A program made the translations under genes and the position numbers. The notes under the pieces were generated by a model, which worked only from the letters and a program-made list of their open reading frames with translations, was not told the DNA's origin and did not search any database. From the NCBI RefSeq assembly GCF_014126615.1, contig NZ_CP059896.1:2056501-2120500 (forward strand): 64,000 nucleotides of DNA, given 5' to 3'. The first letter of the stretch is position 1. The number at the start of each line of letters is the position of its first letter. This document shows positions 1 through 18,045 of this stretch, in pieces. The stretch is from Ciceribacter thiooxidans (GTDB lineage Bacteria > Pseudomonadota > Alphaproteobacteria > Rhizobiales > Rhizobiaceae).

Positions 1-2
1 TC

Positions 3-254: not shown

Positions 255-257
255 CCC

Positions 258-671: not shown

Positions 672-988
672 TGCTCAACATCGGGAACATGGATCGCCGC
701 ATCACCATCGAGCGGGAAACCGAAACAGTGAAACCATCCGGCGACGTATCCAAAGTTTGGACGCCCGTCGCGGTGGTATGGGCCGAAGTGCTTCAGCAGA
801 CGGCAACCGAATTCTTCACCGGCTACGGCGAGGCCGAAACCGGGACCATGATTTTCCGCGTCCGTTATCGCCCTGGCATCACGACCGCCGACCGTGTCAC
901 CTACAACGGGACGGCCTACGGCCTGAAGGAAATCAAGGAACTCGGCAGGTTTGAAGCCCTTGAGCTTCGCGGCGAGACCCTGAAATGA
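671..988 (+). CDS. Phage head closure / head-tail adaptor protein
   Basis: The protein is 105 aa. The ATG at 671 overlaps the previous stop (TGATG); an open extension upstream lies inside the DUF3168 gene and is not the start. The sequence reads GNMDRRITIERET, then VWAEVLQQTATEF and FRVRYRPGITTADRV, ending in an ELRGETLK-like tail. This is the small beta-barrel signature of the SPP1 gp16 / HK97 gp7 head-closure family, which plugs the connector beneath the portal. Its stop overlaps the terminase small-subunit start by 4 bp. Conventional phages place this gene before gp10 and the tail terminator; here it follows them. Confidence 0.75.
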   Translation: MLNIGNMDRRITIERETETVKPSGDVSKVWTPVAVVWAEVLQQTATEFFTGYGEAETGTMIFRVRYRPGITTADRVTYNGTAYGLKEIKELGRFEALELRGETLK

Positions 989-1380
989 CGCACCTTCGCG
1001 GCGTGAAGCCAGCCGTCCAACCCGCCGCCGACCCGCTGAAGAAGGCACCGGCAGCACCGAAGCACTTTTCGGAATACGCCCGTGCGGAATGGAAGCGCAT
1101 CATCCCGGAGGTAATCGCCCGTGGCATCGTGACGAAGGCCGATCTTGGCGGCATCGAAGAACTTTGCATGGCGCGCGGCCTTGCCCGTGAACTGGAAACG
1201 AAGCTTCGCGACCCGGCAACCGGCGACATTGACCTGAAGATTGCCCGTGCGCAGGACAAGGCCGTCCAGACAGCCCGGCAGCTTGCGGCGGAATTCGGTT
1301 TGTCGCCCGTGTCCCGTTCGCGTGTTGCCAGTGCCGGACCCGCCGATGATGACGACGACAACCCGCTTATGGTGCGCTGA
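985..1380 (+). CDS. Phage terminase small subunit, P27 family
   Basis: This 131-aa protein has the P27/Terminase_4 pattern: a basic proline-containing N-terminus (LRGVKPAVQPAADPLKKAP), then an H..EYARAEWKRIIPEVIARG helix, and helices ending in an acidic tail with DDDDD. Small terminase subunits recognise packaging sites and recruit the large subunit. The ATG lies inside the stop of the head-closure gene (ATGA), and its TGA overlaps the large-subunit ATG by one base (TGATG), so the three genes are probably translationally coupled. Confidence 0.82.
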   Translation: MTHLRGVKPAVQPAADPLKKAPAAPKHFSEYARAEWKRIIPEVIARGIVTKADLGGIEELCMARGLARELETKLRDPATGDIDLKIARAQDKAVQTARQLAAEFGLSPVSRSRVASAGPADDDDDNPLMVR

Positions 1381-3017
1381 TGAAAAGCGCGTTTCCGGCA
1401 TGGGTTTTTGACGACAGCCCGATTGACGATCCGCTTGGTTATGGTGACAGGGCCGTGCGTTTTCTTCGCGCCTTGCGTCACCCGGCCAGCACCGCACCGA
1501 AGCACGCTTTCCAGCTTTACACGCCCTTTGAGAGGATGACGAAGCGCATTTACGGGCCGCGCAACCCCGACGGCACCCGCGTCGTGAAGAAGGCATTCGT
1601 CATGCTTGGCCGTGGCAATCGGAAGACCAGCCACGCCGCCGCGTGGTCGCTCTTGCATTTGCTTGGCCCTGAAGCCGTGCCGGCCGGACAGGTGATCTTT
1701 GCCGCGTGCGACCGCGAACAGGCCGGTATCGGTTTTCGCGAGGCGGCGAATATTGTTCGCATGGATCGCCGGCTTGTTGCCGCGACGAAGATCAACGACG
1801 CTTTCAATTCCGCCAAGCAGATTTTGAACCGCCAGACCGGCGCGACCCTGAAGGCGATTTCCAGCGACGGAAGGGCGCAGCACGGCACCACGCCGAATTT
1901 CATCCTCATGGACGAAATTCACCAGTGGCCGAACCGCGATCTTTTCGAGGCTCTGGACTCTGGCACGACGAAGGTGGCCGACCCGCTCACGATCATCTGC
2001 ACCACGGCAGGGCGCGGGCAGGATAATCTCGGCTTTGAGCAATACGATTACGCCTACAAGGTCGCGACCGGCGAGATTGATGATCCGACCGTGTTGCCGA
2101 TCCTGTTCCAGCTTGAACCCGGCGACGACTGGCGCGACGAGGCGAATTGGGAGAAGGCGAACCCCGGCCTGCCTTATGGATTTCCTAACATCGTCGGCTT
2201 GCGCAACAAGTCGAAGGAAGCGGAAAACAGCCCGCCTGCCCGCTATCAGTTCCAACAGTTGAACCTGAATATTTGGCAGGCCGCTTCCCGCGACCCCCTC
2301 TTTGATATGGCCGTCTACGACGCCGGGCGCGATCCCCATTTTGACCTTGCCGAACTGGAGTCGCTGCCGTGCTGGCTTGGCGTTGACCTGTCCCGGTCCG
2401 GCGACCTAACCGCCATCGTCGGCGCTTGGCGGCATGACGACGGGCGCGTGTCCGTCCACCCGTGGTTCTTCCTGCCGTCCGATGGCTTGGAAGACAAAGC
2501 CAAGGTTGAACAGGTTCCCTATCCCCGGTGGCGCGACGACGGCCTCTTGAACGTCATCGACGGCCCCGTGATCGAACCCGACGCCATCGCCGACAAGATC
2601 ATTGACCTTTGCGGCACCTATGACGTTCGCGAGGTGGTCTTTGACCCGTCGCTCGCCGGGCCGATCATGTCGAAGCTCATGGATCACGGCATCAACGTGC
2701 TTCAGGTCCGACAGACGCCCGTCAACATGCACGGCCCGATTTGCGACCTTGAGCGCGTCGTGAATGGCCGTCGCATCCGCCACGGCGCGCACCCGATCCT
2801 TCGCAATCATTTTGACAGCGTCGTGGTGAAGCGCGCCGCCAACGCGGGGGAGCTTGTCACGATGCACAAGGGCACCCGGCATTCAAACCATATCGACGGC
2901 GCTATTGCATCGGCCTTGGCCGTGTCCCGTGCCGCCGCGAACGACGACACCCGATCCATTTTCGATCTTTCCCCGGAAGAATTCGACAGGCTCCACGAGG
3001 AAGCCGAAGCAGCATAG
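1380..3017 (+). CDS. Phage terminase large subunit
   Basis: A 545-aa DNA-packaging motor ATPase and nuclease. The Walker A-like loop is GRGNRKT at residues 77-83 and the Walker B/catalytic carboxylate is LMDEIH with D178 and E179. A C-terminal RNase H-like nuclease starts near residue 335 (WLGVDLSRSGDLTAI), with a second acidic strand VVFDPSLAG and a final HIDGAIASALA acidic motif. The length is normal for Terminase_1 (HK97-type) proteins. It follows the P27 small subunit with a one-base overlap. The next gene is the tape measure; no portal, protease or capsid gene intervenes. Confidence 0.93.
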   Translation: MKSAFPAWVFDDSPIDDPLGYGDRAVRFLRALRHPASTAPKHAFQLYTPFERMTKRIYGPRNPDGTRVVKKAFVMLGRGNRKTSHAAAWSLLHLLGPEAVPAGQVIFAACDREQAGIGFREAANIVRMDRRLVAATKINDAFNSAKQILNRQTGATLKAISSDGRAQHGTTPNFILMDEIHQWPNRDLFEALDSGTTKVADPLTIICTTAGRGQDNLGFEQYDYAYKVATGEIDDPTVLPILFQLEPGDDWRDEANWEKANPGLPYGFPNIVGLRNKSKEAENSPPARYQFQQLNLNIWQAASRDPLFDMAVYDAGRDPHFDLAELESLPCWLGVDLSRSGDLTAIVGAWRHDDGRVSVHPWFFLPSDGLEDKAKVEQVPYPRWRDDGLLNVIDGPVIEPDAIADKIIDLCGTYDVREVVFDPSLAGPIMSKLMDHGINVLQVRQTPVNMHGPICDLERVVNGRRIRHGAHPILRNHFDSVVVKRAANAGELVTMHKGTRHSNHIDGAIASALAVSRAAANDDTRSIFDLSPEEFDRLHEEAEAA

Positions 3018-3028
3018 GAGCCTAGCAG

Positions 3029-5737
3029 ATGGCAGACGACGAACAGCGCCTTTTGGTCTCGTTTGAGGCCCGCCTGACAAAATTCGAACGCGACCTTGAG
3101 CGCGGCAAGAACCGGACCCGCCGCGACTTCCGGCAGATGCAGAAGGACGCCGAACAGGCCGGTTCCGGCATCACCAAGGCCATGAACGGCGCAATGAAAA
3201 CCGTTGGCGCATTCGGCAAAGGATTGGCCGGTGGCATCGTCGGCGGGCTTGCGATTGGTGGCCTCGACCAGATCATTTCGCGCGTCGGCGACATTGCGAA
3301 GGGCGTGGCGAATATCGGCAGCGAAGCCAAGCGCGCCGGTCTTGGCACCAAGGCGTTTCAGGAACTCGGCTATGTCGCCGAACAGAACCGTATCCCGGTT
3401 GATGCCCTTGTTGACGGCATGAAGGAATTGAACCTTCGCGCCGACGAATTCATCACCACCGGCAAGGGCAGCGCAGCCGAAGCATTCCAGCGCCTCGGCT
3501 ATTCGGCGCAAGACCTGAAGCGCAAGCTCGCCGATCCTTCCGCCCTGCTTGTCGAAATCATCGGCAGGCTTGAGCAACTGGACCGGGCCGCACAAATCCG
3601 CATCACCGACGAGATTTTTGGCGGGGTAGCGGGAGAGCGCTTTGTCGAGCTTCTCGACCGGGGAGCGGAAGGCATCCGGGCCACGATCAACGAAGCCAAT
3701 GACCTTGGCCTTGTCATGGACGAACAGCTTATCAAGCGCGCCGACGAATTTAACCGCAAGTGGATGGCGATCGGCGGGACGATCGGCACCTACGTAAAGC
3801 AGGCCGTGCTTGGCCTTGCCTTCGCCGCCGACGATTTCCTTGACCGTTTCCATGGCTTTGAGGAGCAGACGACCCGAAACGTTCAATCCGCGTTGACGGC
3901 CACCTATGACAAGTTGGCGGAAGCGAAGGCGCTGCTTTCCGACCTTCAGCTTGATAAGGGCATCTATCCCGATGACCCGACCATTGACCTCAACATTGAA
4001 CGCCAGAAGCAGCTTATCGAAGAACTGTCCGGCGAGGCCCTGAAGCTTCGCGACATTCTCGACCGGCGCAACGGTTACGATGAAGGCTTCATCTACAAGA
4101 CCGGCGAGGATGCGAAGGGCGCGAAGGCTCCCCTCGACAATCTGAACAATGCCCTGTCCGGCACCGGCAGCGCCGCCGACAGGGCCGTTTCCGGTATCAA
4201 CAGCTATACGGACGCCATTCGCGCCCTGAAGAACGAAGTCCCGGAACTCGCCGCGTCCCTCAAGGATCTCGACGCCAAGGCCAAGATTGAAGCGATCTAT
4301 CAGCAGGCCCTTGCCCGTGCGCAGGGACAGCGGGAAATCGCCCTGGCTAACGAGATGCGGGGCAAGGCGCTTTCGTCGCTCGGCCTGAAGAGTGTGACCG
4401 ACAACCCGACCACCTACCTTTCTTCGGTGCTGGCTTCCGGCAACGGGCAAAGCCATATCGACGGCATGGCGGATGCCTTCGCGGGGAAGCTGGCGAAGAT
4501 GCTGGCATCCATGCCCGACGACCTGAAGGGCAGCGTCACCATCACGTCGGGCTATCGTTCCGTTGAGCGCCAGCAGCAGCTTTGGCTTGAAGCCCTCAAG
4601 AAGCATGGGTCCCCGGAAGCGGCCCGGCAGTGGGTGGCACCGCCCGGCAATAGCCAGCACAACAAGGGCAACGCCGCCGACCTCGGCTATTCGTCCGATG
4701 CCGCCCGGCAGTGGATGCACCAGAACGCGGGCAACTTCGGCCTGTCCTTCCCGTTGTCGAACGAGAACTGGCATATTGAAGACGCCAACGCCCGGAACGG
4801 ACAGGTTGCCGCCGAAATCGACCGCCTGACACAAGCCGCGACCCGGCAGGCCGACGCCTATAGCCAGATCACGCAAGGCGCTAAGGAATACGCGAGCGCC
4901 CAGCAGTTCGAACAGCAAGCCCTTGGCATGACCGCCCAGCGGGCGGCAGCGCTTCGATACGAACAGCAAATGCTCAACGAAGCGCAGCGGGCGGGCATCA
5001 CCTTGTCGCCGCAGCAACGGCAACAGATCGCCCAGCTTGCGCAGGGGATGGCGCAAGCCGAAATGGCGACCGAAGGGCTTCGGCAGAAACAAGAGGGCCT
5101 TGCCGAAGCCGGGCAGTTCTTCGGCACCCAAATCACCGACGCCTTGACCGGGCTTCTCACGGGCACGATGACGGCGGAACAGGCGCTGCAATCCATGCTG
5201 CAAACCCTGATCAAGGTCGGGCTTCAGGCCGTGCTGATGGGGCAAGGCCCGCTTGCTGGCCTCTTCGGTGGCGGCGCATCGGGCGGCGGCTTCGGTGGCC
5301 TTCTCGGCGGCTTGTTTGGTGCGCTCTTCGGGTTCGCGGATGGCGGATGGACCGGCCCCGGCTCGAAGCACCAACCGGCGGGCGTTGTCCATGCCGACGA
5401 ATTCGTCTTCTCCAAGAAAGCCGTCAACCGGATCGGCGTTCGAAACCTCGCCGCGTTGCACAGTGGCGCGCTGAAGGGCTATGCCGAAGGCGGGCACGTC
5501 ACGGCCACGCCGACACTTTCCACGCCCGCCCTTCGCGGCGTCGGTGCAGCCCCGGTTCAAGCGATCTCGATTTCGGCGCCCGTGACGGTGAACGGTTCGG
5601 CGGGCACTCCCGAACAAAACGCCGCCCTTGCGAAACAGGTCGCGAAGCAAATGGAAAACACGATGCGTGGTGTCGTGGCTGACGAAATGCGCAAGCAAAC
5701 AAGGCCCGGCAACTTCGCAAATAACAGGAGTCGCTAG
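3029..5737 (+). CDS. Tail tape measure protein with embedded M15-type peptidase domain
   Basis: A 902-aa protein. The N-terminus is a lambda-type tape measure start (EARLTKFERDLERGKNRTRRDF) with a hydrophobic Gly-rich segment at about residues 60-95. At residues 485-590 is a VanY/M15-like D,D-carboxypeptidase core: SGYRS (507-511), SQHNKG..AADL with H544 and D551 as metal ligands, and NWHIE with H582. Gln/Ala-rich coiled coil follows, then a Gly-rich stretch and an ADGGWTGPGSK..GVVHADEFVF end typical of tape measure C-termini. The protein should set tail length, and the peptidase may trim peptidoglycan during DNA entry. No tail-tip genes follow it. Confidence 0.9.
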   Translation: MADDEQRLLVSFEARLTKFERDLERGKNRTRRDFRQMQKDAEQAGSGITKAMNGAMKTVGAFGKGLAGGIVGGLAIGGLDQIISRVGDIAKGVANIGSEAKRAGLGTKAFQELGYVAEQNRIPVDALVDGMKELNLRADEFITTGKGSAAEAFQRLGYSAQDLKRKLADPSALLVEIIGRLEQLDRAAQIRITDEIFGGVAGERFVELLDRGAEGIRATINEANDLGLVMDEQLIKRADEFNRKWMAIGGTIGTYVKQAVLGLAFAADDFLDRFHGFEEQTTRNVQSALTATYDKLAEAKALLSDLQLDKGIYPDDPTIDLNIERQKQLIEELSGEALKLRDILDRRNGYDEGFIYKTGEDAKGAKAPLDNLNNALSGTGSAADRAVSGINSYTDAIRALKNEVPELAASLKDLDAKAKIEAIYQQALARAQGQREIALANEMRGKALSSLGLKSVTDNPTTYLSSVLASGNGQSHIDGMADAFAGKLAKMLASMPDDLKGSVTITSGYRSVERQQQLWLEALKKHGSPEAARQWVAPPGNSQHNKGNAADLGYSSDAARQWMHQNAGNFGLSFPLSNENWHIEDANARNGQVAAEIDRLTQAATRQADAYSQITQGAKEYASAQQFEQQALGMTAQRAAALRYEQQMLNEAQRAGITLSPQQRQQIAQLAQGMAQAEMATEGLRQKQEGLAEAGQFFGTQITDALTGLLTGTMTAEQALQSMLQTLIKVGLQAVLMGQGPLAGLFGGGASGGGFGGLLGGLFGALFGFADGGWTGPGSKHQPAGVVHADEFVFSKKAVNRIGVRNLAALHSGALKGYAEGGHVTATPTLSTPALRGVGAAPVQAISISAPVTVNGSAGTPEQNAALAKQVAKQMENTMRGVVADEMRKQTRPGNFANNRSR

Positions 5738-5746
5738 AGCGCCTGA

Positions 5747-6043
5747 TCAGTCACCTTTGTAGGTGTTCACACCGATGACGCCACAGATTCCTGCGCCACA
5801 GATGATTGCGGTTGCCGGCAGGCTCCACCATTCCGCCCTGTAATGGCCGAAGAACAGTAGAGCGGCGACCGCGGAAGTCGCAAATATGCAGCCAGCCACC
5901 GAATATCGAATGAGCATCACCGCCCATTGGGGAGGTGGACGTTGCCCCACGAATGCGCCCGCGCTCCACATCATTGCGAGTGGCAGTGTCACGGAGATGG
6001 CAACAAACAATATTGTCAAAAAGAATGCCAATTTCTTCCCCAA
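5747..6043 (-). CDS. Small predicted membrane protein, unknown function
   Basis: A 98-aa protein with about three hydrophobic helices (AFFLTILFVAISVTLPLAMMW, then YSVAGCIFATSAVAALLFF, then ATAIICGAGICGVIGV). The start appears to be TTG at 6041-6043, since a stop lies three codons upstream; a start at the internal ATGs about 24 codons later is possible. It converges on the tape measure gene with a 9-bp gap. I do not recognise a family. A small membrane protein in the lysis or superinfection-exclusion class would fit a prophage, but nothing in the sequence proves that. Confidence 0.5.
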   Translation of the reverse strand: MGKKLAFFLTILFVAISVTLPLAMMWSAGAFVGQRPPPQWAVMLIRYSVAGCIFATSAVAALLFFGHYRAEWWSLPATAIICGAGICGVIGVNTYKGD

Positions 6044-6220
6044 GCCCTCGGATCACTATAACGAGATTTGATTTGCAGGCGCAATCGCCCGCAGCGAGTC
6101 ACCAGCACGCATTGAAGACACCAGACAAGGGAAGTCCCCCAGAAGAACCGGAGGGCTCTCCACGACTCTCTATGAGTCTTTCGGTAGAGGCGAGCCAATT
6201 TTCGGACCGGAGAAGGGTTA

Positions 6221-6310
6221 TTGCGTCAAAAGGCGCCCGGCTTACTGTTCTTAGTAAGATAACAAACTTAATAATAAACATAACAGTATGAAGCACCCTT
6301 TTTGACGCAA
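6221..6310. repeat. Imperfect inverted repeat TTGCGTCAAAA flanking an AT-rich core
   Basis: The left arm is TTGCGTCAAAAGG (6221-6233) and the right arm CCTTTTTGACGCAA (6297-6310); they differ by one inserted T. A partial third copy, TTGCGTCA, is at 9074-9081. The core holds a second palindrome (CTTACT/AGTAAG). This may be a protein-binding region; the function is unknown. Confidence 0.5.
6241..6258. promoter_or_regulatory. CTTACT-N6-AGTAAG palindrome (candidate operator)
   Basis: Six-base arms CTTACT (6241-6246) and AGTAAG (6253-6258) are separated by GTTCTT. The same half-site recurs in the 16-bp palindrome at 7241-7256, just after the next phage gene. Two occurrences within 1 kb suggest one regulator, which is an inference. 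Confidence 0.4.
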
Positions 6311-6554
6311 AAACTCTCCCGGCCCGGAAAGGGAGTTACCCGGACAGCTATTGAAGCCAAAACCCTCCCGGAACCCAAAGACCTTCCGCTTCCCAGAAAG
6401 TTCGCCGGCCATTCATTTCCCCGAGCGTGCGATTTCCGGAACGCTATAGGCCCGGACGTGCACAGCGTGTCACCACGCGAAGGTCGGGCGGTTCTTTCAT
6501 CCTTTCTTGCCGCCCAACCTGTCTTTGAGAAAGGGCGGAAGCAAAGGAACTGCG

Positions 6555-7232
6555 ATGGCGAGACCTCGCAAATACAAGACAGAGGCAGAGGCCAAGGCCG
6601 CCAAGGTTGAGCAACGACGCCAGCAGCGCGCCGCCGAACACGCCCGCAAGATTGACCCCACGAAACGTAAGGACGCCGCCGTGAACTATCCCGCCGCACC
6701 GATCAACGCCGAAACCCTCGAAATCATCGAAGCGATTTGTGCGATAGCTGGCGATCTCAGTTTCTCCGGCAGGCCGATGAAGAGCGACAATCTCCACGCC
6801 GCCGCAAAGATCATGGCGCAATGGGAGCGCGAGAACCGGCAAACGCTTCCGGTCCTTCCCGACGACGCCCCGGTTTACGCCGCCGTGAAGGGCCGTCCGG
6901 TGAAAGAGCGCGTTGACCTGCCTTACAAGTGGGGCAAGCTCCGCACTCACGTCCGCTATGACGCCGCCATTGCGCTTCCCCGTGCGTCCCGCAACTCGAC
7001 CGCGAACAAGAGCCGGGACGCGAAAGACCAAGCCGCCGCCGACACTGCCGGACTCTCCCTTGCCGACTATCGCGCCCGCCGCCAGGCCGCCGCGATTTCC
7101 GCATGGAACGACAAGGCCGCGACCGCCGCACTTAAGGTCAAGGGCGAAGCCACCCTCGCCAAGCGCAAGGCCCGGATCGACCGGCAGGATGCTCGCCGCA
7201 TGAAAGAGCATGAGACGTTCGGTCGTTTCTAG
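6555..7232 (+). CDS. Basic Ala/Lys/Arg-rich phage protein, unknown function
   Basis: A 225-aa protein starting at the ATG at 6555, preceded by AAAGGAAC. The N-terminus MARPRKYKTEAEAKAAK looks like an AT-hook-type basic arm followed by charged helix. The middle (EIIEAICAIAGDLSFSGRP) is more globular, and the C-terminal about 60 residues are again Lys/Arg/Ala-rich helix. It is probably a nucleic-acid-binding accessory protein of the prophage, judged on composition only. I cannot assign a family. The AAGTAAG-CA-CTTACTT palindrome begins 8 bp after its stop. Confidence 0.6.
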   Translation: MARPRKYKTEAEAKAAKVEQRRQQRAAEHARKIDPTKRKDAAVNYPAAPINAETLEIIEAICAIAGDLSFSGRPMKSDNLHAAAKIMAQWERENRQTLPVLPDDAPVYAAVKGRPVKERVDLPYKWGKLRTHVRYDAAIALPRASRNSTANKSRDAKDQAAADTAGLSLADYRARRQAAAISAWNDKAATAALKVKGEATLAKRKARIDRQDARRMKEHETFGRF

Positions 7233-7240
7233 CACCCACC

Positions 7241-7256
7241 AAGTAAGCACTTACTT
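7241..7256. promoter_or_regulatory. AAGTAAG-CA-CTTACTT palindrome (candidate operator)
   Basis: Seven-base arms around a 2-bp centre, placed between two rightward phage genes and followed by AT-rich sequence. It shares the AGTAAG/CTTACT half-site with 6241-6258. It is a candidate operator for the 7358 gene; a weak hairpin is the alternative, but no T-tract follows. Confidence 0.45.
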
Positions 7257-7357
7257 AGCCTAGGCATCTGATTTATCTAATAAATATTTCATCTTGGCCC
7301 TAGACGCGGATTCGCCGCCCCTTAAGATTCTGCCATCACCAACAGAAAGGACGCACC

Positions 7358-7594
7358 ATGCAAACCACCTTCATCCCCACTGAAACCTATGACGCCCTGA
7401 CCAACGGCCTCGCCGCCGATCTTTCCGCCTTGACCCCGGAAGTTGACGGCGGCATTGCGCACAAGGTTGCGGAAGTCCTGTCCCGCTACGGCCTGTTCCC
7501 GGCAGACATGGCAAAGCAGATCGTTGACGATATGTGCGACAGCGCCACCCGGCAGCTTGAGGCCGGTATTCCGGCGATTTCCCGGCCCGCCTGA
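7358..7594 (+). CDS. Small phage-region protein, unknown function
   Basis: A 78-aa protein (MQTTFIPTETYDALTNGLAA and onward) with a good ribosome site (AAAGGAC) 8 bp before the ATG. Predicted mostly helical, slightly acidic and without a membrane segment. A rho-independent terminator follows at 7619-7652, so it ends a short transcript that begins after the 7241 palindrome. No family is recognised. Confidence 0.6.
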   Translation: MQTTFIPTETYDALTNGLAADLSALTPEVDGGIAHKVAEVLSRYGLFPADMAKQIVDDMCDSATRQLEAGIPAISRPA

Positions 7595-7618
7595 TCGGGC
7601 CACGGTAGCCGCCCCAAG

Positions 7619-7652
7619 CCCGCCCGGTTCACGCCGTGGCGGGTTATTTTTT
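7619..7652 (+). terminator. Rho-independent terminator
   Basis: CCCGCC (7619-7624) pairs with GGCGGG (7638-7643) around a 13-nt loop and is followed by TTATTTTTTT. It separates the 78-aa gene from the GGTAAC-controlled promoter downstream. Confidence 0.75.
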
Positions 7653-7663
7653 TACGACCCCTG

Positions 7664-7692
7664 TTGACTTTCGCATGGTAACGTCAGATACC
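7664..7692 (+). promoter_or_regulatory. Sigma-70-like promoter within operator array
   Basis: TTGACT (7664-7669) and GATACC (7687-7692) have a 17-bp spacing. The first GGTAAC site falls within the spacer, which suits repression by occlusion. The -10 match is only moderate. Confidence 0.45.
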
Positions 7693-7721
7693 GTTACCGT
7701 GGTAACAACATATCACGTTAC
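7677..7721. promoter_or_regulatory. GGTAAC/GTTACC operator array
   Basis: Half-sites are at 7677-7682 (GGTAAC), 7693-7698 (GTTACC), 7701-7706 (GGTAAC) and 7717-7721 (GTTAC). The middle pair forms a 14-bp palindrome GTTACC-GT-GGTAAC. The array overlaps the promoter and ends 13 bp before the ATG of the 7735 gene, the layout expected for a cooperative repressor, possibly autoregulatory. Confidence 0.65.
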
Positions 7722-7734
7722 GAAGGTGAAGCAG

Positions 7735-8205
7735 ATGGCGAAAACGCGAGCAGAAATTCAACGCGAATACCGGGAGCGGAAGAAGGCACTGGCAAAGGCC
7801 GAACGCGCCAAGCCCGCCCCGGCGCTCGACCCGAACATGACGACCCCGACCCGGTCCTTCGCTGCCTTCCTCAAGGAACGCGAAGGCAACCTGATGTTCC
7901 CCGAAAATCTGCATTGGGTAGGTGTTGAGGTGGATATGGACCTGACGCGCGAACCGCCGAACCTTGAGACGGCGGGCGACTGGCAGGACATGGGCCTTGA
8001 CGTCAACAGCCTGACCATCGCCACGGGCATGGTCGGCGTCTTCATCGACGCCGCGAAGGAACTGGCGGAACTGATCAACGCCTACAAGACCGAAGAGATT
8101 GAACGGCAAATGAGCGGCGCGACCCCGGCAAAGGGGGAACAGCTTGAAGCCCGTCGTGCCCGGCTGGCGAAGAAGACCAGCCATTTCTTCCCGGTCATCG
8201 AATAG
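7735..8205 (+). CDS. Phage-region protein with basic N-terminus, possibly regulatory
   Basis: A 156-aa protein. The ATG at 7735 is chosen over upstream in-frame starts because it follows GAAGGTGAA and the upstream frame runs through the promoter and operator array. The first 30 residues (KTRAEIQREYRERKKALAKAERAK) are a strongly basic helix of a kind common at the N-terminus of phage accessory proteins. The rest is acidic and helical, with two hydrophobic patches near NSLTIATGMVGVFIDAAKEL. It could bind its own upstream GGTAAC repeats, but no recognised HTH or ribbon-helix-helix fold is evident. Confidence 0.6.
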   Translation: MAKTRAEIQREYRERKKALAKAERAKPAPALDPNMTTPTRSFAAFLKEREGNLMFPENLHWVGVEVDMDLTREPPNLETAGDWQDMGLDVNSLTIATGMVGVFIDAAKELAELINAYKTEEIERQMSGATPAKGEQLEARRARLAKKTSHFFPVIE

Positions 8206-8222
8206 CGATGGGCTGAAGAGTT

Positions 8223-8281
8223 GCCGTCAGACGGTTGCAGCCATCTGACGGCGGTTAGCGAGGCAGGCGCTTTCACCTGCC
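8223..8281. repeat. Two consecutive inverted repeats between phage genes
   Basis: GCCGTCAGA (8223-8231) pairs with TCTGACGGC (8244-8252), and GGCAGG (8262-8267) pairs with CCTGCC (8276-8281). There is no T-tract, so these are probably RNA processing or mRNA-stability structures, or weak terminators, ahead of the 8307 gene. Confidence 0.4.
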
Positions 8282-8306
8282 ACCCCATAACGAAAGGATT
8301 TATAGC

Positions 8307-8840
8307 ATGAAAGCACCGGAACTGCATCCCAGTGCCGCCCCGGCAATTGCCGATCCGAGTCCTGTAAGAGTCATCTTGGTTCAAGGAGCCGCCGCCCGCT
8401 ATATGCCCTTGGCCAAGCAGATTGCCGAACACCTCCTCAACTTTTTGAACAATTTCCCTTATCTTCGCGACGGGCAGGGAAATTGCGGCGAGGTTGCGGC
8501 AATTGCGCATGCCGTTGCCACGTGCGCAGGCTACGAGCCGCGCTTGCTTGGGGGTAATTGCCTCGACGCTAACGGTAGGGCGCCGTTTGGTCGTCGTGGC
8601 GGGCACTATTGGGTGGAAATGCCAGACGGCACGGTGATCGACGGTGCAGGCACTAATCGCGTTCAAGTCTATCGCCCCGGCGACCTGAACCTTCGCATGA
8701 TCCCCATCGTTGGTTACAGGCGCGGTGCTGCATGTATGCGCAAGGTCAAATCGTGGTTGGATTTGAGCGCGACGCTTCAAGAAAAGATTGGCAAATCGGG
8801 CAATTACCCTGGCTTGTCGCAGATGGAGGCCGCGTCGTGA
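8307..8840 (+). CDS. Transglutaminase-like (papain-fold) phage protein, putative
   Basis: A 177-aa protein with AAAGGA before the ATG. Residues 57-115 show the order Cys-His-Asp in the right contexts: DGQGNCGE with C60 at the start of a helix, then GGHYWVEM with H100 on a strand, and GTVIDGAG with D112. This arrangement is that of transglutaminase-like cysteine enzymes. I infer a cysteine hydrolase or transferase of unknown substrate; the family assignment is by motif only. The next gene overlaps its stop (GTGA), so the two are coupled. Confidence 0.6.
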   Translation: MKAPELHPSAAPAIADPSPVRVILVQGAAARYMPLAKQIAEHLLNFLNNFPYLRDGQGNCGEVAAIAHAVATCAGYEPRLLGGNCLDANGRAPFGRRGGHYWVEMPDGTVIDGAGTNRVQVYRPGDLNLRMIPIVGYRRGAACMRKVKSWLDLSATLQEKIGKSGNYPGLSQMEAAS

Positions 8841-9052
8841 ACATGGAAGAACGCCGCCATTTCCCCGAACTCCACCGCCGCAGCGATATCTATGGAACTT
8901 TAACCTGCGAACAGTTGGTGCACCGGCTGGACGTTCTGGAAAGCTTCATTCTCGGCACGATTGGTGAACCGTCCCCGCTGATCGGTCTGCCGGGCGAGGA
9001 AGAAGCGGATTTCCTTGAAGATGGCGACCCCGACTCTGACTCGCGCATCTGA
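8837..9052 (+). CDS. Small acidic phage-region protein, unknown function
   Basis: A 71-aa protein. The GTG at 8837 overlaps the previous stop (GTGA) and sits 7 bp after GGAGG; an ATG at 8843 is an alternative. The N-terminal half is a helix-forming charged segment (MEERRHFPELHRR..YGTLTCEQLVHRLDVLESFILG) and the C-terminus is strongly acidic (EEEADFLEDGDPDSDSR). It is coupled to the transglutaminase-like gene, so it may be a partner or inhibitor of it, but this is only context. A terminator follows at 9110. Confidence 0.55.
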   Translation: MNMEERRHFPELHRRSDIYGTLTCEQLVHRLDVLESFILGTIGEPSPLIGLPGEEEADFLEDGDPDSDSRI

Positions 9053-9109
9053 CGCCGGACCATGAGGGCAACATTGCGTCACTTTTCTATTGAGTTTTGA
9101 GTCAATCCT

Positions 9110-9136
9110 CCCGCCGATCAACATCGGCGGGCTTTT
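9110..9136 (+). terminator. Rho-independent terminator
   Basis: CCCGCCGAT (9110-9118), loop CAAC, ATCGGCGGG (9123-9131), then CTTTTC. It closes the phage accessory transcript and isolates the DUF262/HEPN module that follows. Confidence 0.75.
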
Positions 9137-9202
9137 CATTTGCCGATTTTTGCCCATACGCTATGAGTCGTCCCATTGCCTGGCGGAGCGAGAAGAGAGT
9201 CC

Positions 9203-10390
9203 ATGACGGAAAAAGAGATTATAATCGGTGACGTAGAAGAAGCCATTGAAGAGATTCCTTCTCCAGAAGCCATCGACCCTGACGAGTTTTTTGCAAAGAA
9301 CGCTTTTCGGATCATTTACCAGACGAATAACTTCTTCCTCACTCAGATCCATGAGTTGGTTACAAAAGGCGAAGTTCTGAACATTCGACCCGAATATCAA
9401 CGGCGACTGGTATGGTCTACAGCGCAAAAGTCGCGTCTTATCGAGTCCCTGTTGCTGAACATCCCCATTCCGCCCGTTTTCTTCTACGAAAGCTCGGCTG
9501 CTCGCTATGAAGTGATGGATGGACAGCAAAGATTGAACTGCATACGCGAATTCATCGCGGGCGATTTCGCACTTGCCGGTCTCCAAGTTCTCAAGCCGCT
9601 GAATGGCATAAGGTTCTCGCGATGCCCTCCCCGTATAAAGCGGGCATTAGAACGTTCCTCGGTCTCTGCAATTATTCTTCTTCTTGAAAGCGATACTGGC
9701 GACGTGGCAGACCGCTTAAGCATGCGCGATATCAGGCGTTTCATTTTCGACAGGCTTAACACTGGCGGCAAGAAACTAAACGCGCAGGAGATCAGAAATG
9801 CGTTGAACCCGGGCCCCTTCAATCAAGCTGTAATCAACATATCGCGATCGCGGCTATTTACGGACATTTTCGACATACCGCCATATGTCGAGACGGATCC
9901 AAACGACTATTATGAAAACCCTGTTCGACAGAGGAACTCACTTTATTCCTCCATGGGCGACTGCCAGCTAGTGCTTCGTTACTTCGCTTTGAAAGACGAT
10001 ACCAACATCCGCGGATCAATGAAGTCGATGCTTGATAGGGCAATGGAGCGCCAGTTGTCCGATGACGAGGCCACTCGCGCAGTAAACGACTATCTGGAGC
10101 GATTGAATTTTCTCTACACTCTTTTTGACCAGGAGCCATTTCAACTACTGCCAGACGAGAAGAACCGCATCCGCGTTTCTGCCGCGATCTACGACGCATC
10201 TATGGTCGCGATCGATAAGCTCTGGCATTCCCGCGTGGCAATTGAGCAGAACAAGCAGGGAGTCTTACAACGGATGAAAGCGGCGTTGAGCGACCCGAAG
10301 GATCTCACAACTCTCACCGGACAAGGGAATACCGCCCAAGCAGTTCGCGACCGGATCAGTTTGATGGAACGCGTCCTCACACCAGCTTGA
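9203..10390 (+). CDS. DUF262 domain protein (ParB/sulfiredoxin-like NTPase fold), defence-associated
   Basis: A 395-aa protein starting at the ATG at 9203 after GAAGAGAG. The N-terminal half carries the DUF262 signature: PEYQRRLVWS, then SLLLNIPIPPVFFYE, then the catalytic-type DGQQRLN motif with D106, Q108, Q109 and R110, and later FDRLNTGGKKLNAQEIRNAL. DUF262 is the fold of the GmrS half of GmrSD modification-dependent enzymes. No C-terminal DUF1524 HNH nuclease motif is seen, so the nuclease is likely the adjacent HEPN protein. The pair sits between a terminator and the putative attR. The region is richer in AT than the flanking chromosome. Confidence 0.85.
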   Translation: MTEKEIIIGDVEEAIEEIPSPEAIDPDEFFAKNAFRIIYQTNNFFLTQIHELVTKGEVLNIRPEYQRRLVWSTAQKSRLIESLLLNIPIPPVFFYESSAARYEVMDGQQRLNCIREFIAGDFALAGLQVLKPLNGIRFSRCPPRIKRALERSSVSAIILLLESDTGDVADRLSMRDIRRFIFDRLNTGGKKLNAQEIRNALNPGPFNQAVINISRSRLFTDIFDIPPYVETDPNDYYENPVRQRNSLYSSMGDCQLVLRYFALKDDTNIRGSMKSMLDRAMERQLSDDEATRAVNDYLERLNFLYTLFDQEPFQLLPDEKNRIRVSAAIYDASMVAIDKLWHSRVAIEQNKQGVLQRMKAALSDPKDLTTLTGQGNTAQAVRDRISLMERVLTPA

Positions 10391-10400
10391 AGTGTCAGCA

Positions 10401-11252
10401 ATGACCACGGAATTTTCAGTTATATATGAAGAATTCGCTGAGAATTTGGAGGCGCTAAAGGCGGTTGTTACTGCGTTTTCTACGCCCGGGGCCGGTTCAG
10501 GGAAGACACGCGTTGCTGCCGCGAATTCCGCAACGTTGCTTCTCGCCGCCACTTTCGAAGAGTTTGTCCGCGAGATGGCTCGAGCCTATGCGAAGGCAGT
10601 TATCGCATCGTGCGCGACTATCGATGACGTTCCGATGAAGTTTATCAAGCATGTCTGGAGCCGATACGTAGACGGCTTTGCGAAAATGCAGTTCGACAAC
10701 AAAATTAAACGAGAGGAGAGTATATCAGCGGCACACTCCCGATTTACACTATTTCACGAGTTTTCTCTGGGCGACCTTAGTAAAGATATATACAAGGAGC
10801 TTATTCACAACGAAAACAACATGAGGCCGCAGCAAATAAACAATCTGTTCACAATCAGCAACCTCTCCAATCTTTGCTTACAAATATCAGAGACATATCC
10901 ACTTAGTGGCCATTTTAATTCTCCCGATCAAGGAAAAATTCACGGGCTTCTACTGGACGATCTGAACGACTTCATGCAACGCAGGAATGACGTCGCACAT
11001 GCAATCGCGATGTCGAGTTCTAGTGGCTCGGATCAGTTGGCGAAAGATATCGAGTTCCTGCGCTGCATCGGCGAGGCCATGAGCATTACCCTGGGCGCGC
11101 TCGCACCGAAGCCCTACTGCTCCCTTGAGCACGCCCAACCAGCCACCTCGCCGATTGCCATGCAGGCGGCTCCAGCACCCTCAAATGGGCAGCAAGGAAT
11201 GCTCGCGCGGCTCTTTCACCGTTTGAGAGCGTCCGGTAACGGACCGCATTAA
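10401..11252 (+). CDS. MAE_28990/MAE_18760-like HEPN nuclease, partner of DUF262 protein
   Basis: A 283-aa protein from the ATG at 10401 (an in-frame GTG at 10392 is possible), 10 bp after the DUF262 stop. N-terminal helices (LLLAATFEEFVREMARAYAKAV) and a late R-N-D-V-A-H motif (R195 to H200, the R-x4-H active-site signature) fit the HEPN RNase family commonly encoded next to DUF262 genes. HEPN enzymes cleave RNA and act in abortive infection and toxin-antitoxin systems. The gene is AT-rich with many ATA, AAA and TTA-type codons, unlike its neighbours, which suggests recent transfer. The last about 45 residues are low-complexity. Confidence 0.8.
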   Translation: MTTEFSVIYEEFAENLEALKAVVTAFSTPGAGSGKTRVAAANSATLLLAATFEEFVREMARAYAKAVIASCATIDDVPMKFIKHVWSRYVDGFAKMQFDNKIKREESISAAHSRFTLFHEFSLGDLSKDIYKELIHNENNMRPQQINNLFTISNLSNLCLQISETYPLSGHFNSPDQGKIHGLLLDDLNDFMQRRNDVAHAIAMSSSSGSDQLAKDIEFLRCIGEAMSITLGALAPKPYCSLEHAQPATSPIAMQAAPAPSNGQQGMLARLFHRLRASGNGPH

Positions 11253-11350
11253 AAATCTGCCCCAAATTCCAGCCTTCACAATGTCCCAATTCACGATACG
11301 CTAATATTATCTTTTTGGTTATTTATCAATAGATTACCTCTTGTATTTTT

Positions 11351-11376
11351 GAGAGATTCGAGTTTTCGAGTCTCTC
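11351..11376. repeat. Inverted repeat overlapping the att site
   Basis: GAGAGATTCGA (11351-11361) and TCGAGTCTCTC (11366-11376) pair fully with one G-T wobble around a 4-nt loop. The right arm is the T-loop/T-stem part of the tRNA-like end. No T-run follows directly, so a terminator role is weak. Confidence 0.5.
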
Positions 11377-11387
11377 ATCGCCCACCA
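11365..11387 (+). other. tRNA 3'-end fragment, probable prophage attR
   Basis: The sequence reads as the last 23 nt of a class I tRNA: T-loop TTCGAGT (11365-11371), T-stem strand CTCTC (11372-11376), acceptor strand ATCGCCC (11377-11383), discriminator A and CCA (11385-11387), then a T-rich tract. No 5' tRNA half precedes it, so it is a duplicated tRNA end as left by tRNA-targeted integrases. It would imply an intact tRNA starting GGGCGAT at the left end of the element, outside the window; tRNA-Val is my best guess. Confidence 0.65.
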
Positions 11388-11470
11388 TTTTTCCAAGTTT
11401 TAAGCTTTTGATGTGTTTGAGCAGAATTATGTAGCCAATGCTACAGCGACTGCTTTTTGGCACGAAGCGG

Positions 11471-12265
11471 TCACCGGACGCGACGAAACCATTCCTTTTC
11501 CTGAGCGGCCCTTAGCTGGTCGAGATCGAAGTCCGTGTAGATGATGCCCTGTTGCTTGCCTCCCATTGCGAGCATCTGCCCCGACGCACCCACAGCAAAG
11601 GAATGTCCGTCATCTTTAGGTTCGGGGTAATTTGCGACCGCGATTCCGATTACTGATTGAAAAGCTGTTGCACGGACCCCCGCAACGCGAATGTCGCCAA
11701 CCTCGACATCATCGACAAGAGGGCTGCTGTTCGGCACGAGGATGACTTCTACTCCAGAACGAACTAGATCGGATGCAACATCCGGAAACTCGCGATCCAT
11801 GCAAATCATGATCCCGACAGCCACCTGCCCACGGCGGGTGTCAAGACGAAAAACTGAAGAACTATCCCCAGGCGCGCAGGCCTCTTCGGGCGCATCGAAA
11901 AAGCAGATATGCCGCTTTCGTTGATGAAGTACGATGTCACCGTAACGATCGATCAGAACGGCGGAATTGAACGGTTTAGGCTCCGCCTCCTCTAGGAAGG
12001 TTGCAACAACCGCAATTTCTGTTCTGCGCGCGGCGGCACGAAATTTTTCAATAAACGCTCCCTGCAAATCTACAGCGCCATCGAGCCACGCAGCACGCGC
12101 GGCGGCGTCTTGAGGATTAAATTTGCTGTATCCGTTCGAGAACATCTCAGGAAACACGATAATATCTGCCGCTGCGTTGGACGCGCTGTTGATGACGGCA
12201 TCAATGTCTGCATCCGATAGAACCTGGGCGAGCGCCACCCGAAAAGACTTGGTCGACAAATGCAC
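11471..12265 (-). CDS. Carbon-nitrogen hydrolase (nitrilase superfamily)
   Basis: A 264-aa protein of normal size for single-domain nitrilase-superfamily amidases. The catalytic triad is visible: E40 in IVFPEMFS, K117 in HQRKRHICF, and C155 in GIMICMDREFPD. It hydrolyses C-N bonds of an amide, carbamoyl or nitrile substrate; which one cannot be read from the sequence. It is the first gene beyond the putative attR and is less GC-biased than the chromosome to its right, so it may be part of an older island. No operon partner is evident. Confidence 0.85.
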   Translation of the reverse strand: MHLSTKSFRVALAQVLSDADIDAVINSASNAAADIIVFPEMFSNGYSKFNPQDAAARAAWLDGAVDLQGAFIEKFRAAARRTEIAVVATFLEEAEPKPFNSAVLIDRYGDIVLHQRKRHICFFDAPEEACAPGDSSSVFRLDTRRGQVAVGIMICMDREFPDVASDLVRSGVEVILVPNSSPLVDDVEVGDIRVAGVRATAFQSVIGIAVANYPEPKDDGHSFAVGASGQMLAMGGKQQGIIYTDFDLDQLRAAQEKEWFRRVR

Positions 12266-12504
12266 CCACTCCTCAGCTAGCGTGACTTCATTTATTGCTC
12301 AGCGGCCTACGCCACGGGCAAACATCTGGTCGGGAAGATATGCTAGCAGACGCGCCTGTGGCTTCAACGGCCGCTGTTGACGCAAACCTGCCAACGCCGC
12401 GCCGGCCTCGCCTGGTGGCATTTGCTGCCTAATTTCGCTTTTTGCTGGAAGTGTTTGGCCCATACAGACATCACGGCACGGCAATGCGCCGCCGTCCCTC
12501 CCCC

Positions 12505-13521
12505 TTACAGTCCCAGCTCCTCGCGGTGTTCGAGATACCATTCGACGAAGCGGCGGACGCCGGTGTCGACGCCGGTTTCAGGCTTTTTGCCGGTGAGCGC
12601 GACGAGGAGGTCGGGGCTCGCATAGGTGCGCGGCACGTCGCCCTGCTGCATCGGCAGCATCTTGCGTTTGGCGGGCTTGCCCATGACGCTCTCGATCACC
12701 TCGATGAAATCGAGGAGCCCGACCGGCTGGCCGCCGCCGATGTTGACGACGCGGAACGGCGCCTGGTGCGACAGCGTGTCCTTCACGCTTCCCCCGACCC
12801 GATTCTCCTCCGACGGGGCGATCCGTGAAAGGTCGATGATCGAATCGACAAGGTCGTCGATATAGGTGAAGTCTCTGCTCATCTTGCCTTCGCCGTAGAC
12901 CTCGATCTCGCGGTCCTCGATCATCGCCTTGACGAACTTGAAAAGCGCCATGTCCGGGCGTCCCCAGGGGCCGTAGACGGTAAAGAAGCGGAAGGCCGTG
13001 GTCGGCACGCGGTAGAGGTGCGAATAGCTGTGGGCCATCAGCTCGGTCGCCTTCTTGGTGGCGGCGTAGAAGGTCAGCGGCTCGTCGGCGCGGTCGGTCT
13101 CGCGGAAGGGCACGTCCGGGTTGGCGCCATAGACCGACGAGGTCGAGGCGAGCATCAGGTGTCCGACCTTCAGGGTCTTCGCGAGTTCCAGGATGTTCCA
13201 GGAGCCGATGAGGTTGGAATCGAGATAGGCTTTCGGGTTTTCGAGGCTGTAGCGCACGCCCGCCTGGGCGGCGAGATGGATGATCACGTCCGGCTGGAAG
13301 TCGATCATCGCCTTCTCCAGTGCCGCACGGTCCTCCAGCATGGCGAGCGTCGGGCGGAAGGCCGGGAACTGCGCGAGCGCCGCGTGCCGCGCCTCCTTGA
13401 GTCGGAGATTGTAATAGGCCGTCATGCCGTCGAAGCCCGCGACCTCGTGGCCGTCCTGCAGCAGCCGGCGCGCCAGATGGAAGCCGATGAAGCCGGCCGT
13501 GCCCGTGATGAAATAGCGCAT
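12505..13521 (-). CDS. lpsL: UDP-glucuronate 4-epimerase-like NAD-dependent epimerase
   Basis: A 338-aa extended SDR enzyme. The start is the ATG at 13521, 7 bp after GAGG; a longer frame upstream lacks support. It has the NAD-binding [11 protein letters not shown] near the N-terminus, [18 protein letters not shown] and the catalytic YAATKKA (Tyr and Lys). This subfamily interconverts UDP-glucuronate and UDP-galacturonate to supply LPS or capsule; in Sinorhizobium the gene is lpsL. The gene symbol is by resemblance. It is divergent from the aldo/keto reductase gene with a 256-bp gap holding no other gene. Confidence 0.85.
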
Positions 13522-13777
13522 GATGTGACCTCGAAGAGAAAAAGCGATCCCGCCGGGCCGTCGCGCCCGCGCGTCTGCCCGAAGAAAGGGACTAGAGGCA
13601 TTAGCGCCGGTTGCGGCGGCCTGTCCAGCGCTCGCCGCCCCGCCGCATTGCCGCAGGCGGAAAACGGCTCCCGGCTGTGACCGCTGCGCCACCGGCCGAC
13701 CGCACCCGCCGGCTGCCTTGCTCAGGCCCCCTCCGTTTGCTAGTGGCAGGCGGGACCGGAAATATAGAGGAGACACT

Positions 13778-14764
13778 ATGCGACATCATTCGTTCGGAAG
13801 GACACCCTTCACCGTCAGCGAGATCGGCTTCGGGGCCTGGCAGATCGGCGGCTCGTGGGGCGACGTCTCCGAGGCCGACGGCCGGGCGGCGCTCAATGCC
13901 GCGCTCGACGCCGGCGTGACCTTCATCGACACCGCCGACGTCTACGGCGACGGCCGCTCGGAAAAGATCATCGCCGACGTGCTGAAGTCGCGCGGCGGTC
14001 AGCGCCCGATGGTGGCCACCAAGGCCGGCCGCCGCCTCGATCCGCATGTCGCGGAAGGCTATACCAAGGCCAATATCGAGCGCTTCATCGATCGCTCGCT
14101 CACAAACCTAGAGGTCGATTCGCTCGACCTCGTGCAGCTCCACTGCCCGCCGCAGGACGTCTATTACGATCCGGCGCTCTTCGAAGGCATGGAGGAGCTG
14201 CGCAAGGCCGGCAAGATCCGCAACTACGGCGTCAGCGTCGCGCGCGTGGAGGAAGCGCTGAAGGCGATCGATTATCCGGGCGTCGTCAGCGTCCAGATCA
14301 TCTACAACATCTTCCGCCAGCGGCCCGCCGACCTCTTCTTCAAGGAAGCGAAGCGGAAGAACATCGCCGTCATCGTCCGCGTGCCGCTCGCAAGCGGCCT
14401 GCTCTCGGGAAAGATCTCGGCGAAGACCGCCTTCTCCGCCGACGACCACCGCAGCTTCAACCGCCACGGCGAAGCCTTCGACGTCGGCGAGACCTTTGCC
14501 GGCGTACCTTTCGAGGTCGGCCTGCAGGCGGTCGAGGAAATCCGCAAGCTGGTGCCCGAGGGCGCGTCGATGGCGGCCTTCGCGCTCCGCTGGATCCTGA
14601 TGAACGAGGCGGTGACTGTGGTCATCCCCGGCGCCCGCAATGCCGAGCAGGCCCGCGCGAACGCAGCAGCCGCGGAGCTGCCGGCGCTTTCGGCGGACGT
14701 GATGAAGGCTGCGCGCGACACCTACGACCGGCTGGTCGCACCCCACGTCCATCACCGCTGGTAA
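13778..14764 (+). CDS. Aldo/keto reductase
   Basis: A 328-aa NADPH-dependent oxidoreductase. The ATG at 13778 follows AGAGGAG; codons upstream do not match the family start. The AKR tetrad is visible: D in [10 protein letters not shown] in the same motif, K in VATKAG and H in LVQLHCP. NADP-binding is marked by [14 protein letters not shown] near the C-terminus. The HHRW end and overall pattern resemble the YghZ/AKR13-type group. Substrate unknown. It converges on the phytase-like gene across a terminator. Confidence 0.88.
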
Positions 14765-14786
14765 GATTTCCGACGCAAGTCCGAAA

Positions 14787-14821
14787 AAGGAGGAGGCCAG
14801 GTGATCGCTCACCCGGCCTCC
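14787..14821 (-). terminator. Rho-independent terminator of the phytase-like gene
   Basis: GGAGGCCAGGTGA (14792-14804) pairs with TCACCCGGCCTCC (14809-14821) with one wobble. On the minus strand a T-run (complement of AAAAA at 14784-14788) follows the stem, so it serves the leftward gene; the reductase may also end in it. Confidence 0.65.
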
Positions 14822-14843
14822 AATCGTCTTGGGAGGACGATAA

Positions 14844-17042: not shown

Positions 17043-17145
17043 CGGAAAACCTCCAGCTTCCTCAAACGAGACAGGAGGCTTTTGCCGGTTCGTCGTTACA
17101 GGCGCATGACATGCCTGCGAAAATGCGGGGATATCACGGTCCGGC

Positions 17146-18045
17146 TCAGCCTCTCCCCTTCTCCTTCGAGAACTCGCTCGCCATCAGGAAGAGCGAGGCG
17201 CCGAGGATCATCGCAGCCCCCACCCAGAGATAGCCCGCCGGCGCGTAACCGAAGGCAATCCAGCCGGCGAGCACGTTGAGCGGCAGCTTGAGGTCATCGA
17301 AGGGCTGGACGTAGGCGGCATCGGCCGCCCTGTAGGCGGCCGTCAGGAAATATTGCCCCACCACCGTCAGGAGCCCCGCCAGCAAGAGCACAACCAGCCC
17401 GCTGCCGGTCGGGACGGCGAAACCTGCGACCGTGGCGAGCCCGGCATTGATCGGCGTCAGCAGCAGAAGAAGCCAGATGGTGATCGTCTCCGGCCGCTCG
17501 TGCGCCGTCAGATCCTTGACGAACAGCGAGGATGCGCCCCAGAGCAGGGCTGCGAGCACCGGGAGCAGCGAGGCCGTGGTGAAGGTCTCCGACCACGGTT
17601 GCAGGATGACCATCGCCCCTGAGAAACCAATGAGGGTCGCCGTCCAGCGCTTCCAGCCGACCTGCTCCCCGAGGAAGAGCTTGGCGCCGACGATGATGAA
17701 GAAGGGCGAGGTCATCACGAGCGCGATCGCCTGCCAGATCGGTACTGTGGCGAGCCCCTCCACCCAGGCCTGCACGCCAAAGGCAGCAAGCAGCACGCGG
17801 GCAAGGTGGCGGCCCGGAAAGCGGGTGCGCATGGCCCGCAGGCCGAGCCGCCGCAACAGCGGAACGGAAAGGACGAGCGCGAAAGCGTATTGCCAGAAGG
17901 CGATCGAGGTGGCTGGAAAACCGGCGACCATCGCCACCCACTGGGTCGCGACGTTGATGACGGCGAAGGCAATCCCCGCCAGGACCATGAAGACGGCGCC
18001 GAGGACGGCACTGGAACGGGTGAGCACAAGGGGGCTCTGATTCAT
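17146..18045 (-). CDS. ribN: Riboflavin transporter RibN (EamA/DMT family)
   Basis: A 299-aa protein with ten predicted membrane helices in two EamA repeats (first GAVFMVLAGIAFAVINVATQ, second LLPVLAALLWGASSLFVKDL). The ATG at 18045 has GAAGGGAAAAG upstream; an in-frame extension to 18174 runs through the riboswitch expression platform and is rejected. An FMN riboswitch lies about 190 bp upstream on the same strand, which ties this otherwise generic DMT exporter-like protein to riboflavin uptake. RibN of rhizobia has this arrangement. It should be turned down when cellular FMN is high. Confidence 0.88.
   Translation of the reverse strand: MNQSPLVLTRSSAVLGAVFMVLAGIAFAVINVATQWVAMVAGFPATSIAFWQYAFALVLSVPLLRRLGLRAMRTRFPGRHLARVLLAAFGVQAWVEGLATVPIWQAIALVMTSPFFIIVGAKLFLGEQVGWKRWTATLIGFSGAMVILQPWSETFTTASLLPVLAALLWGASSLFVKDLTAHERPETITIWLLLLLTPINAGLATVAGFAVPTGSGLVVLLLAGLLTVVGQYFLTAAYRAADAAYVQPFDDLKLPLNVLAGWIAFGYAPAGYLWVGAAMILGASLFLMASEFSKEKGRG

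Follow-up and report, generated by a model that had tools for sequence, protein, structure and literature searches.

The window, by which we mean the whole 64,000-nucleotide stretch of Ciceribacter thiooxidans DNA analysed here, contains two adjoining genes separated by a 10-base gap, the first encoding a DUF262 protein and the second a HEPN protein (Table 1). The two genes form the right-end cargo of a phage-like element of 18.4 kb that sits in a tRNA-Val gene; after the DUF262 gene come the HEPN gene, attR and a nitrilase-like host gene. The host genome comprises 5.04 Mb in two contigs, and Rhizobium species are the source of the closest proteins.

The pair is AT-rich, as an earlier note made from the sequence alone had claimed: GC is 0.47–0.52 in all five 500-base bins of 9001–11500, against about 0.6 in most of the neighbourhood (0.58–0.66 in 17 of 18 bins over 1–9000, with 0.52 in the remaining bin, and 0.63–0.68 across 12501–18000). 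The bins just right of attR (11501–12500) are lowish too, at 0.55–0.56. The earlier note also had the pair set off by a terminator on the left and a probable attR on the right. The right boundary is borne out by an exact 25-bp repeat of the tRNA-Val(TAC) 3′ end. On the left, an intrinsic-terminator-like hairpin with a T tract is indeed present and has the most G–C pairs among the terminator-like sites, but such sites, 4 in the region against a shuffle mean of 2.7 (s.d. 1.7), are not clearly in excess. Left of the pair, a sigma-70-type promoter pattern has 0 matches (shuffles 2.6). An Rfam scan gives no match for the cargo pair at gathering score and finds a tRNA and an FMN riboswitch elsewhere in the window; the riboswitch (18227–18377, minus strand, RF00050, 117 bits) is ordinary.

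Table 1 Features of the pair, of its carrier and of the right ends of sibling elements (window positions unless a contig is named)
Feature	Position	Strand	Description
Terminase large subunit (TerL) of carrier	1380..3017	+	PHROG 9, 5.6e-123
Tape-measure-like protein of carrier	3029..5737	+	PHROG 10574, 6.3e-179
Intrinsic-terminator-like hairpin, left of pair	9110..9131	+	9 pairs, 7 G–C, then T tract CTTTTCATTT
DUF262 protein	9203..10390	+	GmrSD_N, ParB/Srx-like fold; 395 aa, without DUF1524/HNH match
D106-G-Q-Q-R nucleotide-pocket motif	9518..9532	+	residues 106–110 of DUF262 protein
HEPN protein	10401..11252	+	RiboL-PSP / MAE_28990 type; 283 aa from ATG
R195-x4-H200 putative RNase active-site motif	10983..11000	+	RNDVAH; R195 at 10983–10985, H200 at 10998–11000
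attR, right boundary of element	11365..11389	+	25-bp copy of tRNA-Val(TAC) 3′ end
attL, outside window	G000:C1:2049433-2049457		exact 25-bp repeat partner of attR
Right end of sibling L158			BglII-type nuclease; tRNA-Val site common with window element
Right end of sibling L159			DUF4747; tRNA-Val site common with window element
Right end of sibling L160			PDC-M36A
Right end of sibling L161			AIPR with AbiU model match
Right end of sibling L162			second DUF262+HEPN, at tRNA-Thr

Domains and motifs of the two proteins

The DUF262 protein matches Pfam PF03235 at E=1.3e-24 (87.9 bits, cut-off 33.2), and D106, G107, Q109 and R110 are unchanged across 43 aligned DUF262 sequences. Neither protein of the pair has a DUF1524/HNH match at E<=1 in Pfam, in agreement with the earlier claim of a DGQQR-bearing DUF262 protein that lacks its usual HNH domain, and the Pfam scan matches no DNase domain in either. 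A single-sequence search of solved structures gives no match for the DUF262 protein and a profile search gives a weak one to BrxU, at 0.0014; the best fold matches are BrxU and SspE. The BrxU alignment spans chain residues 1–421 of 563, consistent with the C-terminal nuclease part alone being missing.

The HEPN protein matches PF18735 (E=1.7e-16, 61.1 bits, cut-off 28.4) and PF18737 (E=3.8e-13, 50.5 bits, cut-off 26.8). With residues numbered from the ATG at 10401 (an alternative GTG at 10392 would give 286 aa), R195, N196, A199 and H200 are unchanged across 45 aligned HEPN sequences, so that the claimed R-x4-H motif stands as well. A single-sequence search of solved structures yields nothing meaningful for this protein and a profile search yields weak matches to Csm6-type CRISPR ribonucleases (0.075–0.088), while in a second-look structural comparison a HEPN toxin is the best match. 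The window HEPN is without a PADLOC v2.0.0 match at E<=1. As a single query it matches nothing among viral contigs, where its alignment finds 7 loci, and tblastn against collections of phage and plasmid records gives no match at 1e-5.

The fold matches of the first protein bring in DNA-directed, type-IV-like restriction, in which DUF262 would recognise modified phage DNA and HEPN would act on DNA or merely assist. GmrSD, BrxU and SspE, according to excerpts of a review, contain DUF262 and act on modified DNA, and two of them are the best fold matches. The lack of a DNase domain match in both proteins argues against such restriction, as does the invariant Rx4H, since HEPN domains bearing this motif are mostly RNases (PMC3710099, in the part available). 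We regard DNA-directed action as improbable.

Co-occurrence of the pair and its relation to known systems

DUF262 and MAE_28990-type HEPN genes, which the earlier note said are known to co-occur, are neighbours whichever gene is used as the seed. A DUF262 gene lies immediately upstream at 21 of 21 HEPN-seeded loci of a species-genome collection, including L020, in which the DUF262 gene is interrupted, and L026, in which the HEPN match is short. With DUF262 as the seed and a threshold of E<=1e-60, whole-genome searches hit 5 of the 397 genomes at order level and 4 of the 394 at family level, the host's own counted. All six distinct non-own genomes have an adjoining HEPN-profile ORF, at DUF262 identities of 39–70%; some of the sequences behind the profiles came from relatives listed in these searches. 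One locus is probably present in both the HEPN-seeded and DUF262-seeded sets, as L024 and G1247 lie on contigs of equal length (82,030). This patchy distribution is as expected for cargo.

Viral contigs hold 136 relatives of the DUF262 protein. The best 80 were kept, which are the most query-like and include near-copies and two loci (L037 and L041) whose contigs are as long as those of genome loci; downstream ORFs, scanned in 79, match PF18735 in 73 and PF18737 in 65 (E<=0.01), and one matches a DNA methylase. A HEPN-profile ORF is found downstream in 103 of 114 DUF262 loci, with a profile built partly from those same ORFs, one of which (L064) is the DNA methylase; we therefore give weight to the Pfam count (73 of 79) and to the searches from other seeds. 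Across loci the intergenic distance is near zero, with a median of 0 nt. HEPN evolves faster than its DUF262 partner in an identity comparison, uncorrected for shared ancestry, of the window with 17 loci out of 19 chosen (L007 and L014 dropped out because of alternative starts, and L020 and L026 had not been selected). Among six chosen phage and plasmid records, pairs occur in a Vibrio phage, the P2-like P24B2, a Moraxella phage and an E. coli plasmid; an A. baumannii plasmid pair is a weak match under the cut-off, and in a Nostoc plasmid the HEPN frame downstream of DUF262 is split by a stop. DUF262 plus HEPN is a real module.

Three loci depart from the usual arrangement. In the Nostoc plasmid (L030:4108-5100), the R-x4-H part, judged by eye, lies behind the in-frame stop. 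In L020:583-2835, about 1 kb with a 312-aa ORF interrupts the DUF262 gene, and a HEPN match follows. At L064:5338-8889, the DUF262 protein is longer (583 aa) and adjoins the DNA methylase, not HEPN.

The available part of Anantharaman et al. (2013, PMC3710099) lists the Ribo L-PSP-HEPN and MAE_28990 families, to which the window HEPN belongs, in operons with ParB, and in another place a ParB is equated with DUF262. A test as a two-gene defence module, the window branch and the carrier were not found in that part.

The nearest defence system in outline is PD-T4-2, given as DUF262 plus PF18735 in the table of a review available in part. This validated anti-T4 system confers protection on E. coli K-12, and T4 plaquing rises when it is deleted from its native strain ECOR65 (Vassallo et al. 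2022, PMC9519451, in the part available). Like the window pair, it has two genes, DUF262 then HEPN, and its HEPN also carries R-x4-H. An alignment of three PD-T4-2_A proteins matches that of the window DUF262 over most of the length (hhalign 100%, E 5.5e-41, 313 columns). The PADLOC PD-T4-2_A model, for which no cut-off is given, hits the window protein at E=5e-31 and 106 bits; NsnA scores higher, at 205 bits. The second genes differ: the PD-T4-2 HEPN has about 165–170 aa against 283 aa, and three PD-T4-2_B proteins reach 1.5% in hhalign against the window HEPN, with the catalytic helix alone aligned. The PADLOC PD-T4-2_B model has no window match at E<=1 and matches in 0 of 5 genomes, the host's included, at E<=0.001; it matches in 3 of 398 phylum-level genomes, with DUF262 just upstream in each. 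In a 98-row DUF262 tree that leaves out L020 and 17 near-copies, the window clade lies far from the three PD-T4-2_A proteins, with weak deepest forks and a long L123 branch that may falsely join PD-T4-2. The architecture is PD-T4-2-like, but the second gene does not match PD-T4-2_B, so the pair is not filed as PD-T4-2 proper.

Among PADLOC models, NsnA scores best with the window DUF262 (E=3.9e-61, residues 35–391); NsnA, NsnB and NsnC are the gene names of Menshen. NsnA, as the L123 protein, aligns with the window DUF262 at 99.95% in hhalign over 320 columns. L123 is the one locus found here to have both NsnA and NsnB, and its DUF262 gene is followed by genes for what is by eye a P-loop ATPase and for a third protein, not by HEPN; the remaining 7 NsnB loci have no DUF262 within the stretch examined. 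In a whole-genome search the NsnB model proved unspecific, with hits in 122 of 142 genomes and in each of the 14 controls. Menshen is linked with DUF262 in excerpts of a review, and none of the matches listed in literature searches under NsnA or NsnB concerns defence. We rejected Menshen for the window pair, as neither NsnB nor NsnC is adjacent to its DUF262 gene. Ordinary GmrSD restriction was rejected too: GmrSD, BrxU and SspE share DUF262 and DGQQR with the window protein, but they are DUF262–DUF1524 proteins, whereas the window pair lacks a DUF1524/HNH match and has a HEPN gene next instead. PF03235 together with PF18735 was not found in a literature search. The pair is a variant of a kind known in outline, and a distinct branch of it.

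The carrier element and its right-end slot

From repeat to repeat, attL and attR delimit an element of 18,432 bp. PHROGs comparison of 19 proteins, cargo pair included, recognises an integrase, portal, tail-tube-like protein, protease–capsid fusion, HNH endonuclease, connectors, TerS, TerL and a tape-measure-like protein, with no match for the right-end proteins starting at 6555, 7636, 8307 and 8732 nor for HEPN; none of the 19 was recognised as a replication, tail-tip or lysis protein. The 177-aa protein at 8307–8840 has, by eye, a Cys...His...Asp pattern like that of papain/transglutaminase folds, and tblastn finds related sequences in three of the 42 sibling contigs, L198, L202 and L221.

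The left flank is matched by 40 genomes, own included, of which three of the same genus were examined. In G1219, the alignment of the left flank (96% identical) extends across tRNA-Val and covers 58 bases counted from attR, and the right flank (93%) becomes similar again at equal spacing; in G1257 and G1276, the flanks lie too close together to accommodate an 18-kb insertion at tRNA-Val. The insertion is thus absent from all three. The stretch 11423–12491 right of attR, which holds the nitrilase-like gene (by eye), has no DNA-level alignment to G1219 despite flanks of 93–96% identity at equal spacing.

Capsid-forming, cf-PICI-like satellites are small integrated elements with their own head and packaging genes and an incomplete set of tail, replication and lysis genes. 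Compared with this definition, the carrier has 18.4 kb, portal, capsid, TerS/TerL and connectors, and also tape-measure-like and tail-tube-like genes, while several of its small genes have no assignment. Its TerL is below 60% identity to all 2,191 matching phage records, the best row being at 33%. The carrier family, of about 17–18 kb, integrated in tRNA genes and with its own capsid, packaging and tape-measure genes, is possibly satellite-like; literature searches found no description of such Rhizobiaceae elements.

A TerL search at E<=1e-150 matches 40 of 394 family genomes, own included, and we compared the element with the nine best besides its own (L156–L164, TerL identity 62–77%). The gene order from portal to tape measure is kept in 9 of 9, and exact repeats of 17–29 bp bound 16.6–18.4 kb in six (L156, L158, L159, L161, L162 and L163); no bounding exact repeat of at least 16 bp was found for L157, L160 and L164. 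In all nine the right-end genes differ from the window pair. Among 11 chosen right-end proteins from seven siblings (L156 and L164 left out; nine scanned with both Pfam and PADLOC), nuclease or defence models match in four siblings (L158, L160, L161 and L162; Table 1), and the scanned proteins of L157 and L163 give nothing above cut-off. One L164 right-end protein is 60% identical to the DUF4747 protein of L159; at L159:16198-17630 and L164:3241-4691, DUF4747 is accompanied by a small protein, judged by eye as membrane-bound, and the two are a candidate undescribed defence pair.

The second DUF262–HEPN pair, in L162, resembles the pair of an E. coli IncX1 plasmid (55% for the DUF262 piece, 27% for HEPN), and BLASTP finds no significant similarity between its HEPN and that of the window (E 0.032). 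Two DUF262–HEPN subfamilies have thus seemingly been captured separately by the slot. In L162:1995-3063, DUF262 is split over two frames near the DGQQR region, where there is a T run, through decay or sequencing error. Among IMG/VR sibling contigs, right-end GC is below that of the structural block in all 16 measurable ones, host flank possibly included.

An element-internal role, for instance in controlling induction or a helper phage, would suit so compact an element, which may need a helper, as no replication or lysis gene is recognised among the 19 proteins. Yet the pair lies outside the element core, the 42 sibling contigs of at least 70% TerL identity (L181–L222, many clipped) have no DUF262 or HEPN profile match in the part available, and tblastn of both window proteins finds no match in 8 of the 9 genomic siblings. 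We consider such a role highly improbable.

A proposed function for the pair

The reading that we favour, as fairly probable, is an anti-phage module carried as mobile-element cargo, with the DUF262 protein as an NTPase that licenses HEPN, the RNase. Observed directly are both families, their intact motifs, their tight co-occurrence in fixed order, the location on a mobile element and a slot that holds other nuclease- or defence-type genes in several siblings; these observations support the defence cargo proposed in the earlier note, the RNase role being predicted. The DUF262 protein would be a ParB/Srx-fold NTPase that keeps the DGQQR pocket and a helical C-terminal part and ends about where the BrxU nuclease part would start, and the separately encoded HEPN would stand in for the nuclease as effector. 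A phage cue at infection, the presumed trigger, would be sensed by the DUF262 protein, a predicted NTP hydrolase, and change its nucleotide state; DUF262 control over HEPN would then consist in the release or activation of the RNase by this change. Cleavage of host and/or phage RNA would stop the infected cell, an abortive outcome that would benefit the resident element.

HEPN toxins are common in toxin–antitoxin systems, and the pair might instead be an addiction module in which DUF262 neutralises a HEPN toxin and keeps the element in the chromosome. Close coupling of two genes on a mobile element, the HEPN toxin as best second-look structural match and the faster evolution of HEPN would all fit. 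A plain antitoxin, however, needs neither the large size nor the conserved nucleotide-pocket motif of DUF262; PD-T4-2, with the equal two domains, protects against phage, and the slot of some siblings carries other nuclease- or defence-type genes. Addiction therefore seems unlikely to us as the main explanation, though toxin–antitoxin and defence roles are compatible and not mutually exclusive.

Beyond the anti-phage reading of this one pair, we tentatively propose, at somewhat less than even chances, that DUF262 may serve generally as an NTP-driven chassis that licenses exchangeable effectors: fused HNH in GmrSD, BrxU and SspE, other partners in Menshen, and HEPN RNases acting in trans, whose types (window, PD-T4-2 and IncX1/L162) number at least three and are very divergent. 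The window pair would then represent a widespread RNA-targeting class without a HEPN model in PADLOC v2.0.0, carried by capsid-encoding, possibly satellite-like Rhizobiaceae elements of about 17–18 kb, whose attR-proximal slot would be a defence hotspot that independently captured two DUF262–HEPN subfamilies. The parts that most merit pursuit are the exchange of partners on the DUF262 chassis and the variable cargo slot of this family of compact elements. If the proposal is true, one NTPase switch would drive DNA- or RNA-cutting effectors through partner swap, the pair would offer a compact, testable two-protein case, and the carrier slot would be a place to seek further undescribed defence genes.
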